In this document: positions 1,547-61,027 of the stretch, in pieces
How positions within the stretch are numbered: position 1 is the stretch's first letter
How the letters are laid out: every line of letters begins with the position of its first letter
NCBI GenBank assembly: GCA_008933995.1
Contig: WARS01000044.1
Span: 496,001-560,000, forward strand
Reading direction: 5' to 3'
Length of the DNA: 64,000 nt
Source of the DNA: Datnioides undecimradiatus
Lineage: Eukaryota > Chordata > Actinopteri > Lobotiformes > Datnioididae
The notes under the pieces: model-generated
The model's database searches: none
Told to the model about the DNA's origin: nothing
Seen by the model: only the letters and a program-made list of their open reading frames with translations
Translations under genes and position numbers: made by a program

Positions 1547-1702
1547 CTGACTCTTGGATGCAGCCACCTTTGCGAACAGAGCCTGCGACACCTTGGCTCT
1601 CTTCATCTCGTGCTGAATCTCCTCATAGATAGAAGCGCTCACATTGAGAACACAACTGTCTGTCCTCAACCCTCTGTCTCCTGTGACTGGGGACAGTCTC
1701 GC
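1547..1702 (-). CDS. satb1: satb1 coding exon 8 (linker and first part of CUT2; residues 498-549)
   Basis: Acceptor TTTTTAG|GCG, donor AGTCAG|GTACTT. After a divergent linker ([15 protein letters not shown]) it reads [19 protein letters not shown] and [12 protein letters not shown], the N-terminal part of CUT2. The exon is 156 nt, phase 0 to phase 0. The next exon (GWLCELLRW in the family) is not in positions 1-1546. Confidence 0.94.
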
Positions 1703-2680
1703 CTAAAAATAAAATTTGTGTTTACCACAAGCTGCAATAATCATCCCAGGTAATGTGAATTTACAGAAAAGTGAGACGAGACTGATACAGAGCACAGACA
1801 CAAGCTAAGGTTAACACACTTTTAGACAGGGGTCAGATCCTTTATGCAGACCGATAGTGTCTATACAAAGCGGAGAGCAATGTGGAGGGTTGGGAGGGCA
1901 ATGTGAACTGATTCACTGAATACTCTCTCGAAGGGAAGCTCCTCCCTGAGAGGGGAAGCAGCTGGCAACATTATGTATACCAGAGGAAACATGCGGTAGT
2001 CTGCACCCTCTGTAGTACTGCGGTGCACCAGGATCTGGTCGTACCAGACTGGGAAAAAAGGGGTTGTGGGGGGTTAGGAATGGGGTGATAAAAAAGAAAA
2101 CTCTCATGACTAGAGGAAGTTAGTAGTGTCAGTTTACAGACTATTACTATTTTGACCTGATGATGGGATCGCAGCTTAGGGATCACCAGGTGTGTCACAA
2201 ATCACCCTGATGGGGGCATAAATGTCTATACCAAAGACTTCAAAAAAGCTCAGTAATATGATGAATTCTGTTTGTTGGTGTTGTTGATAAAGTCCTCAGA
2301 GTTTGAAATGTCTTTAATAAACTGACCCAGTTTGACTGACGTTATCTGTCCAGCCATACAGGATATGTGCAAGATTGTTTCTCACACCAGAACAAACAGA
2401 AAATCTACTGCTCATTATGTTGATTGAGGTATAAAACAGCACTCTCTCTCTCCATCTCTCTCTTTCAGTGTGACCTGTGTGGGCCTTGGTGGCGTTTTAT
2501 TGCAGCTGGGGGTGAATCCAGTCAAGCTTCTGTCTTTCTCCTCCTGGTAGATGCGTTCCCTCTCAGCCTCAGGCAGCTGCAGGAAGCTGTACATAGCCCG
2601 CAGGTTAACCAGCAGAGACTGGGAGGCGTGTAATGGATCCTCCTCCTTACGCAGTATCTCTGACAACAGACCCTGGTAAA

Positions 2681-2731
<51 letters not shown>

Positions 2732-5700
2732 CTACTCAAGCAGTACACAACAGTACATGCATTAAATCTGAAATGTATTCAGACATGTTGGTGTATACTG
2801 ACTTCAATTCATTAAAATAACAATTAAAACTGAGGTGAAACTATTGTGGGGGGCTTTCAGCTTTTAATAATTTGTGAATGCCAATAAAAAGTCTTGAAAG
2901 GAATATGCTGACATTTTCAGAAATATGATTGTTGGCCTTCTTGTCCACAAGATCCATATCACTATTACATCTGTCTGTTAAATATAAAGCAACAGCCGGC
3001 AGACGTTAGCTGTAGCTTACCGCGTAGACTGGAGACCACAAACAACAAATTGTGGTGAAAAGCAACCAAACTTGTTTTTACCCTTTTTAACAAATGGGAT
3101 ATAATGTTTTAGGTGAACTTCCGAGGTGCTAATAAAGACAGATTTTATTTGTTTACCTTTGGACAGAGCCAAGCTACCCGCTAGCTGTTTCCAGTTTTTA
3201 TTCTTAGCAAAACTTGATGTTTCTTAGCTGTAGTTTTATACTTACCACAGGGGGGTAATATTGATTTTTTTTCTCTAACTCTCAGCAAAAAGTATGTTTC
3301 CAAAAATGTTGAAGTATTGTTGAACTTTAAAAATTTATTTCAAAGCTTTTATGAAAAAAGGAAGAGAACATTAAATTGAACATTGTGATGAACCAGTGAT
3401 GATGCAGATGTCTTTAAATAAATGTTTAATGTTAAAATCAACACTTTGGCATACATTGTTAAATGGTTAAGGACAAAAAAACAGACAATATTTCGAATTA
3501 TGGCTGCATTTAGAGTGTGTTGACACCATGAACATCATGCATACCACAATCAATCTCACGTTAATGATTTTTCCATTATTGTAATCCAAAGATCCCAGTA
3601 AAATGTTTCTCATGGCTAAAGGAATTTTGGACAATCTCCTCATACTCAAGTTTGGATCTCTTTCAATGAGGCACCTTGTCAAGTTCCTGTGGTTTACTGT
3701 TTCACAGCTATACATGATCCGGAGCCAGTTCTCAGTTGGTACTTAACATACTGCTCGCCTGTAGAGCTAGTATTATTCTGGGTGTATCTGTGTATGCAGG
3801 AAAACCTTCAAACACGCTTGCTTGCATGCTGATCGTAGGGCCTCCATCCGGAAAAGAAATCAGATTTCACACTGGCATTGAAATGGAAGGAGAGGAAACA
3901 GCCTTCTTATTCAAATCATGGATCATCTTTGGATGCACCCAGAAAAAACGAGTCCTTCCAAATAGATGGAGGCTTTGTGTGAATCGCCAAATGACAAATG
4001 CTCCCCTCACGTCTATATGGCAACTTGGCATCATGCCCAACTTGTATGGCTGGCACCAGAGCACCCTGGACTTGGCAATGGGGGAAACACGGGGGTGGAT
4101 AATAACTAGCTCTGCTTATTGTGATGAAAATGATAATGACGGTAATAATAATAATAATAACAATGGGTGAAGCCTGTCCTCTGAGCCCCATTTCTGTGGG
4201 TGTGGTGGTGAATGTAAGATGATGGACACAGATAACGTGGCATTTTAATCTTAGACGCAATGGTAGAGGGAGATAGGGATATGAAATGAGGGGATCCAAT
4301 GGAAAGAAAAAAGGGAAAGATTAAAAAAAAAGATGGAGAGGTAGAGATTAAACGAATAGAAGAGTGGCCAGAGTGCAAGGTGGCAAGATGGAGGGACATT
4401 AAGATAGAGGAAGGGGTAGAGAGGGAGACAGCATTTCTCCAAGGGGTTGTGATTAGTTGGCCCAGCAGCTGCTTCAGTACTGGCACCGGCTTTGTGCTGC
4501 AGAGAGCTGGCACAAACACACACACACACACACATACATACACACACGCATGCATGGGGGGGAGGGTGCACTGCGGCAAAGGCCATGCCAATGTGCCAAC
4601 CATCTAACACACATATTCACAGAACACACTTAACACAGAACCGCAACACCAGAAAACCCTCCAAAAGATAATTACCAGCAAACAGTTGCAACCTCTTTCA
4701 ACACCTGTCCCTCGCATCACAGTCACTGTGGTGTATTCGTTCCATACCTGGGTCCTGTTAAAGGCCACCCGGGCAAAGATGGCTTGGGAGATGCCTGCTC
4801 TCTTTAGTTCCTCCCTCACACAGTGGTAGATGTCACTTGGCACGTCTGTTGGACCCACAGAAGACCCAGCCGATGTCTGGTTTTGCAGTGGGGCTGCAGG
4901 GCCTCCCACTGGGCCACCGTGTGCCTGCTGCGGGGCTTGGGAATCAGGGGGTTTGGAGAAGACCTTGGCAGGAGCCCTGCCTACAGGCGGATGGTTGAGA
5001 TACTGCTGTGGGGATGGTGAGAGACCCTGGCCAGCTAGCATGCGGCTAACGGCATACTGCTGGTTGAGAAACTGGGCCATGACAAGCTGCTGGTTGACCA
5101 TTTGGGAGCTGAGAGGTTGGGTTACCAACCCGTGAGGTCGCAGGCCGAGTGCTGGGCGGCCACATAAGTTGGCTACTTCTCCATGAGAGAAAAGAAGGGT
5201 GGAGCTCTGATCTGCTGGGCTACTTGTGATTGGCTGCTGGGTGAGGGTGATCTGTGTGGACTGGTCGGGGAAACTGTCCTTCTCTGGTGCAGAAAAAGGC
5301 GAGACAGATGTATAATTACTAACACACAAAATTCTAACAGTGTGTCCTAAATCTGTACTGGACGCTAATTCTAAGCAAGTATGCATACTACTGGAAAAAG
5401 GGCCAAAATGTTCTACATATACTCAAAGCACACAGCATGCATACCAAATATAGCTGAAATTTTTGAGTGTCTTGCTGATGGAAACTGTTCTCTCCCAACG
5501 CAATGCACAAATTAAACCGAGGAGCAGCTCACAGCTGGAAGTTTTTTAATATTTTATGGGTGATAGCGAGACTCCTTCCTAAACATCTTGGGAAAACAAG
5601 TGAGCTTTTTCCTCATAAAGTTTAATCAGGAGTGACTTTCCAAAGCTGCAGTTTGATGTGTGACATCCAACATTTTGTACATAATCCTGTTAGTTCAAAA

Positions 5701-6337: not shown

Positions 6338-9300
6338 CACAGTTTTTCCCTGAAGACCATCCTCTTCTGCAATCTTTACATCTGATTACACCTTTCATCT
6401 TCTCATATTTATTTTAATCTGCTTCTTGCAAACAAGAGAGGGGGGTAAAGGGAGTGATAGGAGAGAGAGGGGGAGAGAGAGGAGAGAGAGGAAGGAGAGA
6501 AAGGAAGGGTGGGGGAGGAGGATTTGTCTGTATCAGATCAGCAGAGAAGGAAGGAATTTGAGGAAGAGAGAGATAGTGAGCAATTTCTCTTTATCAAACT
6601 GTAGATGTCCTATGCACCCTCAGGCAAAATAGCAGATAGGCTAAGTTGATAATTATGAATATTCATAGAGAGGCCTTCCTCCAAATACTGCATCATTAAT
6701 GTAAAATTATTTCTGCAGTTGTGTCTGTATTTGCTTAATTAAACACACCAGAACTGAAGATCTTAAAACCAGATTTGGGGCTGTTATTGCTGAATCAGTC
6801 AAGATTGCAGGAGAAGCAAAATACCAAGTAGTGAGAGAGATGGACAGATAGAGTGAGGAAAGTTAAGACAGTGGGCGAGGCTGACAGACAGATAGAGTGA
6901 CAGGCAGACAGGTTGGCAGTGGAAAGAATCAAGATAGGCAGCAGCCCAGGCAGCAGGGCTTTTTAAGAGATTGCCATCTCTCTTTATCTGTTTCTCTCTC
7001 ACGCTCTGCCCCCACACCTTATCTACCTCTGCATCTGGACTTCCTGTCTCACTATTGGACCACACGTTTACCCAGCTTCATGCGTCAAAGTAGGCATGCA
7101 CGCACGCATTCACAGGACATGGAAGGGCAAAGACATTACAGGCACAATTTGAACTTCAGCCCAAATATTCCTCCTTTGATTTCTTGTATGCATGATCTGT
7201 GTGTGTGTGTACCTGGGACAGTGGGCACTCCTTGGCCAGGGTGCTCTGGTTCATGTCCTTCAAGAGCTCCTTCAGGGCGTTTCTCACTGTGGAGTGACTC
7301 CACTGCTCGGCTGGCAGGTCCTCCAACTTTGGACAGCTAGTCAAAGAAAAAGCACTTGAACTGCAACATCTTCATATATTACAATTTAAAGACAGAGTCA
7401 AGCAATGAAGTCCACTTTCATAAAGCTGGAGAACTTTCATTTGAAAAACTGTCTTTCAGTGCTCATTATAGTTAACACTCCAAAAACGCTGGTACTATTG
7501 GTCCCATCATGTACATTAAATGCACATTATGTAATTTCTGCAGTTAGGGCCCTTCAACCAAAACAGTAACAAAGAAGTTTGATGATGTTGTGACATAATG
7601 TGGGATCATGGGAATTGTTGTCTACTTTGTTAAACAACAAAAATTGGATTTAATTAAATTATAGATTTAAGAGTTTGAACATTTTTGGAAACGCTTAACA
7701 TGATTTACACATACGAGTCTTCTAAACCTTTAATGGCATCTTAAATTAGACCCTGCTGATGACATCATTAGGGTTATTATGGTTAGACTTCCCTTCAGAG
7801 CCTCAGAAGATACACCTGTTGAACAGAACTTTATGTGTAAAATCAGTGGAGTTCCCCTTTAAAAAGGCGCTACCCCCAAAACTTCTGTACTTGCTTTCAT
7901 GGAGCAGGGTGAGAAACAGGCTGAAGTCTGAGCATGTTTTCATTTTAACACACACATTTTGGCTGTGGGAGGAAACTAATGCATTTGAAAAACTACTTAT
8001 TGGAGCTAATAAACTCAGAGTGAGTGAAATAATGCACATGCTTCTTTCTTTGAGCCAGTAGTCCGTTTTTTACTGAAGACAATTTGACATGACACAGCAG
8101 AAAAGAACTGTCTCTGCACTTAATATTAGAGTTAATGATGTCTGAATTCCACAATAAGTTAAAATGTCTGCTGTGAAGATGGCCCATATCAACCTTAAAA
8201 TGTCTGCTGTGAAGATGGCCCATATCAACCTCTGCCTTTCTATCTTGCACTGATAAATATGCTGCACTGTCCTTGATCTCAAGTTGACACAGCACCTAAA
8301 ATGTGGTCGAAAACAGCAGTCGAAAATCAGAAGGGACATCTATCATTCAAAAACATTACAGGAAATAACTTTTAATGCCTTTTTAAAATGTCATTAATAT
8401 TCATGGCAACACGCAAATAAAATCACTCATTAAACTTAATCTAATGGCATTAAAATAGAATAAGAATTTTATCGTCCGCTGCACACCAAAAGACATTTTG
8501 TGTGGGTCTTATGTGGTCTGTGCCCTTTGGTTGTTTTGTTTCGTTAATAAAGAATAGGAATGGTGGGTAGTGAGAGTCTTTTCCAGCATGCACTGAGAGA
8601 ACTCAACCAGATATTTTGCTACAGACAGACAAGACAGGGAACAGAAGCTGACTGTAACAGTAGACACACATATAGATGCGACATCAGCTCCCTACCTGTG
8701 CAGCTGTATTTTAAGGGTGATGACATGGTGAACATCCTGCAGCATATCAGCCACTGTGGCATCAGGAGCATCTGTTACACAGGACAGAGGCACTGGGTTC
8801 CACCTGCCCACCTGGATCAGACCTGAACATTGCACACAAAAGTAAAAAATGGGGGAAAACAGTATTGTTTTTTAACTTGTGCCATTCTCTTTGTGAAAGA
8901 CTCATGTTATGTACCTTTGGCCTGTGCGGCAGAGCTGTGCGAGTAGCCCAGTGTCAGCAGGGCCATCTCTATCAGCTGGTTAAACAGCAGATCTCTCTTG
9001 ACCAACACAAACTCAGCATGTTCTTCTCTCTTCTCTCTTTCCAGAGGGCTTTCCTTGTGCTCCACCACGCAGAACACCGGCAGCAGGCTCCCTGATGTGA
9101 CGGACACAAATTATGTCATCTGACATAAAGGGACACTTAAGGTTGTGAGTGCATATATGACATGAGGGAAGAATTATTCAAGCAAAAGAAAAACTCACTA
9201 AAGATCCAATCTGTCGTATCATGTTTCAAGTCAGTGCAACTGGAATCTTTAAAGAATAAAACCACTGAGCTCCCCCTTTGTAGCTATTCTCTGAACCCCC

Positions 9301-17139: not shown

Positions 17140-61027
<43,888 letters not shown>

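Follow-up and report, generated by a model that had tools for sequence, protein, structure and literature searches.

The question raised by this locus is how a coding exon of satb1 is recognized when a dinucleotide repeat occupies the position of the polypyrimidine tract in its acceptor, and whether such an acceptor is a working splice signal or a switch for exon skipping. The window, that is, the whole stretch of 64,000 nucleotides analysed, corresponds to positions 496001–560000 of contig C480 in a genome of 581 Mb and 497 contigs. The satb1 gene is found on the minus strand in the first 9.5 kb of the window and its last exons lie past the window edge, in stretch L002. It was delimited by tblastn of the window and L002 with the human SATB1 sequence. 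This search covered in one gene the ULD, CUTL, CUT1, CUT2 and homeodomain regions, which compose the SATB1 domain list given in PMC10457122. Two other features of the gene are a 36-base unit present in two perfect tandem copies (8159–8231) in the intron between exons 3 and 4, and an exon 4 donor (7197–7212, minus strand) that leads directly into a short AC repeat, CCCAG/GTACACACACACACAG, in an intron whose acceptor has an ordinary polypyrimidine tract.

Exon 7, which is numbered according to the coding-exon count of this analysis, translates without stop codons into 66 residues. The first 50–54 of them match the PDB chains of SATB1 CUT1 (1yse, E value 1.5e-21; residues 40–89 of the 93-residue 2o49 chain), identifying the exon as the one that codes the second half of CUT1. 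It is in register with the paralogues, with 43 of 50 CUT1 residues identical to those of C307, and the sequence following the repeat is thus, by its CUT1 match, a real conserved coding exon. The intron that separates it from the preceding exon has 2075 nt. On the other side, the translation of the exon starting at position 1702 aligns by eye and gap-free to human SATB1 from the V that comes after ...PPQ, and both ends of exon 7 therefore appear conserved. The coordinates of these elements, and of those discussed below, are collected in the table.

Table. Position of the splicing elements and exons of satb1, kcnh8 and the C486 paralogue. Coordinates are those of the window unless another stretch is named; a slash marks the exon/intron boundary.
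Feature	Position	Strand	Basis
satb1 exon before exon 7, first half of CUT1; ends ...FNRTQ, donor CAG/GTATGG	4748..5283	-	
Candidate branch-point adenosine of satb1 exon 7, in TGAC, position -57	2729..2729	-	inferred
(GT)23 tract in polypyrimidine-tract position, satb1 exon 7	2682..2727	-	sequence
CTTTACCAG, remainder of exon 7 acceptor; sole U run is three U's	2673..2681	-	sequence
satb1 exon 7, 198 nt, phase 0/0, second half of CUT1	2475..2672	-	
Exon 7 donor, CAG/GTCACA, with C at both +3 and +5	2469..2474	-	sequence
satb1 exon after exon 7, first half of CUT2; acceptor ATTTTTAG	1547..1702	-	
satb1 homeodomain with diverged recognition helix	L002, about 5240-5401	-	
kcnh8 exon 4 acceptor tract (TG)23.5, then TTTACAG; TACTAACTAT before it	39629..39675	+	
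kcnh8 exon 4, 131 nt	39682..39812	+	
C486 CUT1 exon acceptor: TAAC, (TG)13, GGCTGCAG; intron of 103 nt	L006, C486:5596388-5596546	-	

The repeat is a perfect (AC)23 array on the plus strand (100% match), which in the sense direction of satb1 reads as 46 nt of (GT)23. A GU-repeat acceptor was defined as one with at least 10 units on the sense strand, no more than about 15 nt away from its AG, and in exon 7 the run ends 9 nt before the exon. An earlier note on this DNA had described a (TG)23 repeat replacing the polypyrimidine tract nine bases before a 198-nt exon with phase 0 ends, coding the second half of CUT1 and followed by a weak donor. This anatomy was recovered in each of its elements, including the phase and length of the exon and the donor sequence CAG/GTCACA, which departs at +3 and +5 from the consensus GTRAGT.

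The acceptor was then compared with others of the gene. A crude count gives 12 pyrimidines in 20 positions before exon 7, 12 before e2 and 11 before e8 among the seven satb1 acceptors tested, and by this measure it is not the weakest acceptor of satb1. Within the final 40 nt, these three acceptors also agree in their longest stretch of pyrimidines, 5 nt. What is special in the exon 7 acceptor is the alternation and the length of its tract. The AG-free zone upstream of the exon, 59 nt, is the longest among the same seven acceptors, but its length alone is not unusual because the ordinary acceptor of the homologous exon in C307 has an AG-free zone of 124 nt. Apart from the A at -5, the 59-nt zone has a single adenosine, in the TGAC at -57, and no other A stands between the repeat and the closest AG upstream of it. 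The (GT)23 array is thus likely to fill all the space that separates branch point and AG, and the repeat length would set this distance. TGAC obtains 2.99 in a hand-made branch-point score; motifs further upstream score better (4.89 at -90) and have AGs between them and exon 7.

The interpretation that we consider probable is a functional 3' splice site whose polypyrimidine tract is replaced by a GU repeat, with exon 7 present in most or all transcripts. The repeat would fill the space from the branch point, putatively the A of TGAC, to CUUUACCAG. Its alternating U's together with the CUUU would offer U2AF a poor yet sufficient platform, and exonic enhancers would probably help the conserved CUT1 exon against TDP-43, which would bind to the same tract. 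Such an arrangement could originate by microsatellite expansion of a T- or TG-rich segment located between branch point and AG, if the expansion is tolerated, which would be why acceptors of this kind recur, as in kcnh8 exon 4 and in a satb2-like gene (see below). Human APOA2 (apoA-II) has a comparable layout at its intron 2/exon 3 boundary, where a GU repeat of about 16 units substitutes for the polypyrimidine tract and the exon is included. There, TDP-43 and enhancers reportedly oppose each other (Mercado 2005). The likeness to APOA2 lies in the replacement of the polypyrimidine tract and in the presumed filling of the space between branch point and AG; the satb1 repeat differs in belonging to another gene and in being longer, 23 units versus about 16. 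Judged by this layout, which it shares with APOA2 and CFTR, the satb1 exon 7 acceptor has the structure of a GU-repeat acceptor.

An argument for this interpretation comes from the neighbouring gene, kcnh8, which was identified on the plus strand of the window by tblastn with the human KCNH8 sequence. The two genes recognised in the window, satb1 (minus strand, 1–9.5 kb) and kcnh8 (plus strand, 18–57 kb), point away from each other and are presumably also neighbours on human 3p24.3. The acceptor of kcnh8 exon 4 has the same architecture, in the same genome, with a TACTAAC three bases upstream of its (TG)23.5 tract, and the exon 3/exon 4 junction is in register with human KCNH8. This exon, unlike satb1 exon 7, would shift the frame of the ion channel if skipped, as its length is 131 nt. 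The GU-repeat type of acceptor must consequently work here, if kcnh8 is functional.

A second occurrence is found among the satb paralogues. A genome search with a CUT1 query gave matches on four contigs, C480, C307, C468 and C486, and the genome therefore has three further satb genes. In the exons homologous to satb1 exon 7, the acceptors of C307 and C468 are ordinary while that of C486, a gene that we take to be satb2-like on the basis of its residues, has a GT repeat. The architecture is that of satb1 and the exon is homologous, but the repeat has 13 units, the intron 103 nt and the exon 213 nt. Since 213 nt could also be skipped in frame, obligatory inclusion is argued by kcnh8 only. A branch-point-like motif adjoins the repeat or is at most 3 bases away from it in all three cases, namely TGAC in C480, TAAC in C486 and TACTAAC in kcnh8; higher-scoring motifs are found further upstream in both C480 and C486, and the putative branch points are weak candidates. 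The presence of the same construction before a frame-shifting exon and its recurrence make a functional GU-repeat acceptor the simplest account of the satb1 arrangement.

The frequency of these acceptors was estimated on the coding exons of the four satb genes and of kcnh8. A GT run of at least 20 nt, ending in each case 6–9 nt before the exon, is present in 3 of the 33 acceptors that were placed uniquely out of 36 tried; the other three (C307 e5, kcnh8 x2 and x11) have no GT array by eye. Exons with an undefined start or located outside the stretches analysed were set aside prior to counting; these include C468 e4 and e6, C486 e3, e4, e6 and homeodomain exon, the N-terminal exons of C307 and the late exons of kcnh8. 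Without the index case and with the three acceptors read by eye, the count is 2 of 35 (0.7–19%), a rate that is only indicative as the sample is small, non-random and started from a hit. Within the window, two of the six GT/AC arrays of at least 20 units abut, in sense orientation, one of the 17 coding acceptors. Random placement of six arrays relative to 17 acceptors gives p = 8e-5 for at least two contacts and p = 0.0086 for at least one contact among five arrays, in a test chosen after both cases had been seen. Shorter arrays are common, with 52 GT/AC arrays of at least 10 units in 232 kb. Genome-wide, (GT)10 is followed by CAG 10924 times versus 5340 times in the mirrored GAC control, a ratio of 2.05 that compares with background CAG:GAC ratios of 2.00 in the window and 1.97 in the 232 kb. 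YAG behind (GT)10 shows no clear excess across the genome (5869 versus 5557 expected; counted per run, 5221 versus 5114). These genome-wide counts would fit a few hundred true GU-repeat acceptors as well as none. Of 30 (GT)10-AG loci, those listed first for C1 and C2 and many of them overlapping, 10 distinct sites were read, and the open frames that follow their AGs reach at most 62 codons.

The main alternative is that the acceptor behaves like that of CFTR exon 9. TDP-43 bound to (UG)23 would block U2AF, a part of the transcripts would skip exon 7 in a proportion set by repeat length, and a Satb1 without complete CUT1 would be made. The likeness to CFTR exon 9 proposed in the earlier note holds for the anatomy, since the (TG)m(T)n organization of CFTR is also a UG repeat followed by a short U tract and AG. 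The long UG repeat and three-U tract of satb1 go beyond the TG13T5 allele of CFTR. In CFTR, the tract is used less when its U's are few and its UG's numerous (PMC12171016) and severity follows the TG number when associated to T5 (PMC9385490). Binding of TDP-43 to (GU)23 is expected from the affinity published for its RNA-binding domain, about 68 pM for (GU)6 in preprint PMC12697283, and 23 repeats could hold three such domains. The exon has 198 nt and a weak donor; on paper both of its splice sites are weak, a condition for partial skipping that speaks against constitutive use. Some repression of exon 7 is also plausible because TDP-43 located close to a splice site represses that site, according to review PMC13343711.

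Other observations argue against regulated skipping. CFTR missplicing depends on hnRNP A1 at an exonic GGGGAAU element as well as on TDP-43 at the UG tract (PMC12171016). The satb1 exon, which has (TG)23 plus three T's at its acceptor, differs by having no such element: GGGGA and TAGGG, sought as exonic hnRNP A1 silencers, are both absent from exon 7 and one GGGA is present. The same type of acceptor precedes kcnh8 exon 4, which is not skippable in frame. Skipping would also remove about 50 of the 93 residues that make up a folded construct of the CUT domain, a loss likelier to break CUT1 than to tune it. The step taken in the earlier note from this anatomy to regulated skipping, and to a satb1-specific rheostat, thus found no support, in view of the same acceptor type at kcnh8 exon 4 and, with 13 repeats, in C486, and of the absence of GGGGA. 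We consider skipping tuned by TDP-43 unlikely, and a constitutive GU-repeat acceptor more likely than a satb1-specific splicing rheostat. The satb1 acceptor probably represents a known signal in a functional form found in fish, and not a switch particular to this gene.

Two further explanations have a small probability each. In the first, the (GU)23 RNA would adopt the poly(UG) quadruplex (pUG) fold and so compact the 46-nt stretch that separates branch point from AG. RNAs with 12 UG repeats fold and those with 24 form double folds (PMC12276007), and the 23 units of satb1 are above the minimum of 12. TDP-43 binding and pUG folding are mutually exclusive (PMC12697283), and a 24th unit would allow the double fold, a possible step in a dependence on length. 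The 23, 23.5 and 13 repeats of satb1, kcnh8 and C486 all sit between a branch-point-like motif and AG, in line with this explanation. Against it, the half-life of pUG folding in vitro, at least 13 min (PMC12276007), is slow relative to co-transcriptional splicing, and TDP-43 would outcompete the folding if abundant.

In the second explanation the array is meaningless, either because it results from neutral drift in a decaying duplicate or because of an assembly error that could also make its length wrong. The abundance of GT/AC arrays noted above is in line with this possibility, as is the state of the C480 copy. Of the two satb1-like genes, C480 has diverged more, with 42 of 50 CUT1 residues as in human versus 49 of 50 in the other gene. 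Its homeodomain is present but the recognition helix is changed, reading FFNSQDHD where the three other satb genes have FFQNQRY or FFQNQRF. In homeodomain numbering, residues N51 and R53 seem to be missing, and CUT1 and CUT2 may for this reason be the main DNA-binding parts of the C480 Satb1. The C480 copy may be under relaxed constraint, a possibility opened by the altered helix that weakens the arguments drawn from its conservation. On the other side, the CUT1 and CUT2 exons of C480 are still open and recognisable and the layout is repeated in kcnh8 and C486; the satb1 repeat length is known here from one assembly.

It is very improbable that exon 7 follows a bridged, U2AF2-independent AC-GT intron of the type known from fish and lamprey (Lin et al., Genome Research, as cited in review PMC7404189), in which a donor-side AC tract pairs with the GT tract and joins the splice sites. 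The two have in common a 3' splice site with a GT tract, here in a fish-like gene, and sense AC runs exist in satb1 intron 4 (6226–6206 and at the exon 4 donor), two introns upstream, but no sense AC array of at least 4 units is found in either intron flanking exon 7, that of 2075 nt included, which led to rejection of bridging within these introns, while the only sense AC array of kcnh8 intron 3 (13 nt, 2342 nt into an intron of 2841 nt) is away from the donor, the 103-nt C486 intron has no AC array by eye, and the folding of the 201-nt acceptor region is no more stable than that of shuffled sequences (z -0.98). An unusual hairpin at the exon 7 acceptor was rejected on this same z value, from a prediction restricted to nested base pairs.

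For satb1 alone, it is likely that exon 7 is simply included through its GU-repeat acceptor. A broader proposal, to which we give a low probability, is that fish have a sizeable class of constitutive GU-repeat acceptors placed exactly between branch point and AG and devoid of an AC partner. The repeat would act as a length-dependent spacer, single-stranded under TDP-43 and pUG-compacted without it, microsatellite alleles would tune the splicing of many genes, and the satb CUT1 exon would have acquired such an acceptor twice independently, in C480 and C486. The openly licensed literature searched for microsatellite or TG-repeat polypyrimidine-tract acceptors in teleosts gave no report, and its one match on skipping of the satb1 CUT1 exon concerns another SATB1 exon. 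If GU-repeat acceptors without AC partners were frequent in fish, a core splicing signal in conserved genes would contain ordinary microsatellite variation. The alleles of a repeat would then translate directly into splicing alleles, and fish would provide a natural test of the competition between U2AF, TDP-43 and poly(UG) folding.
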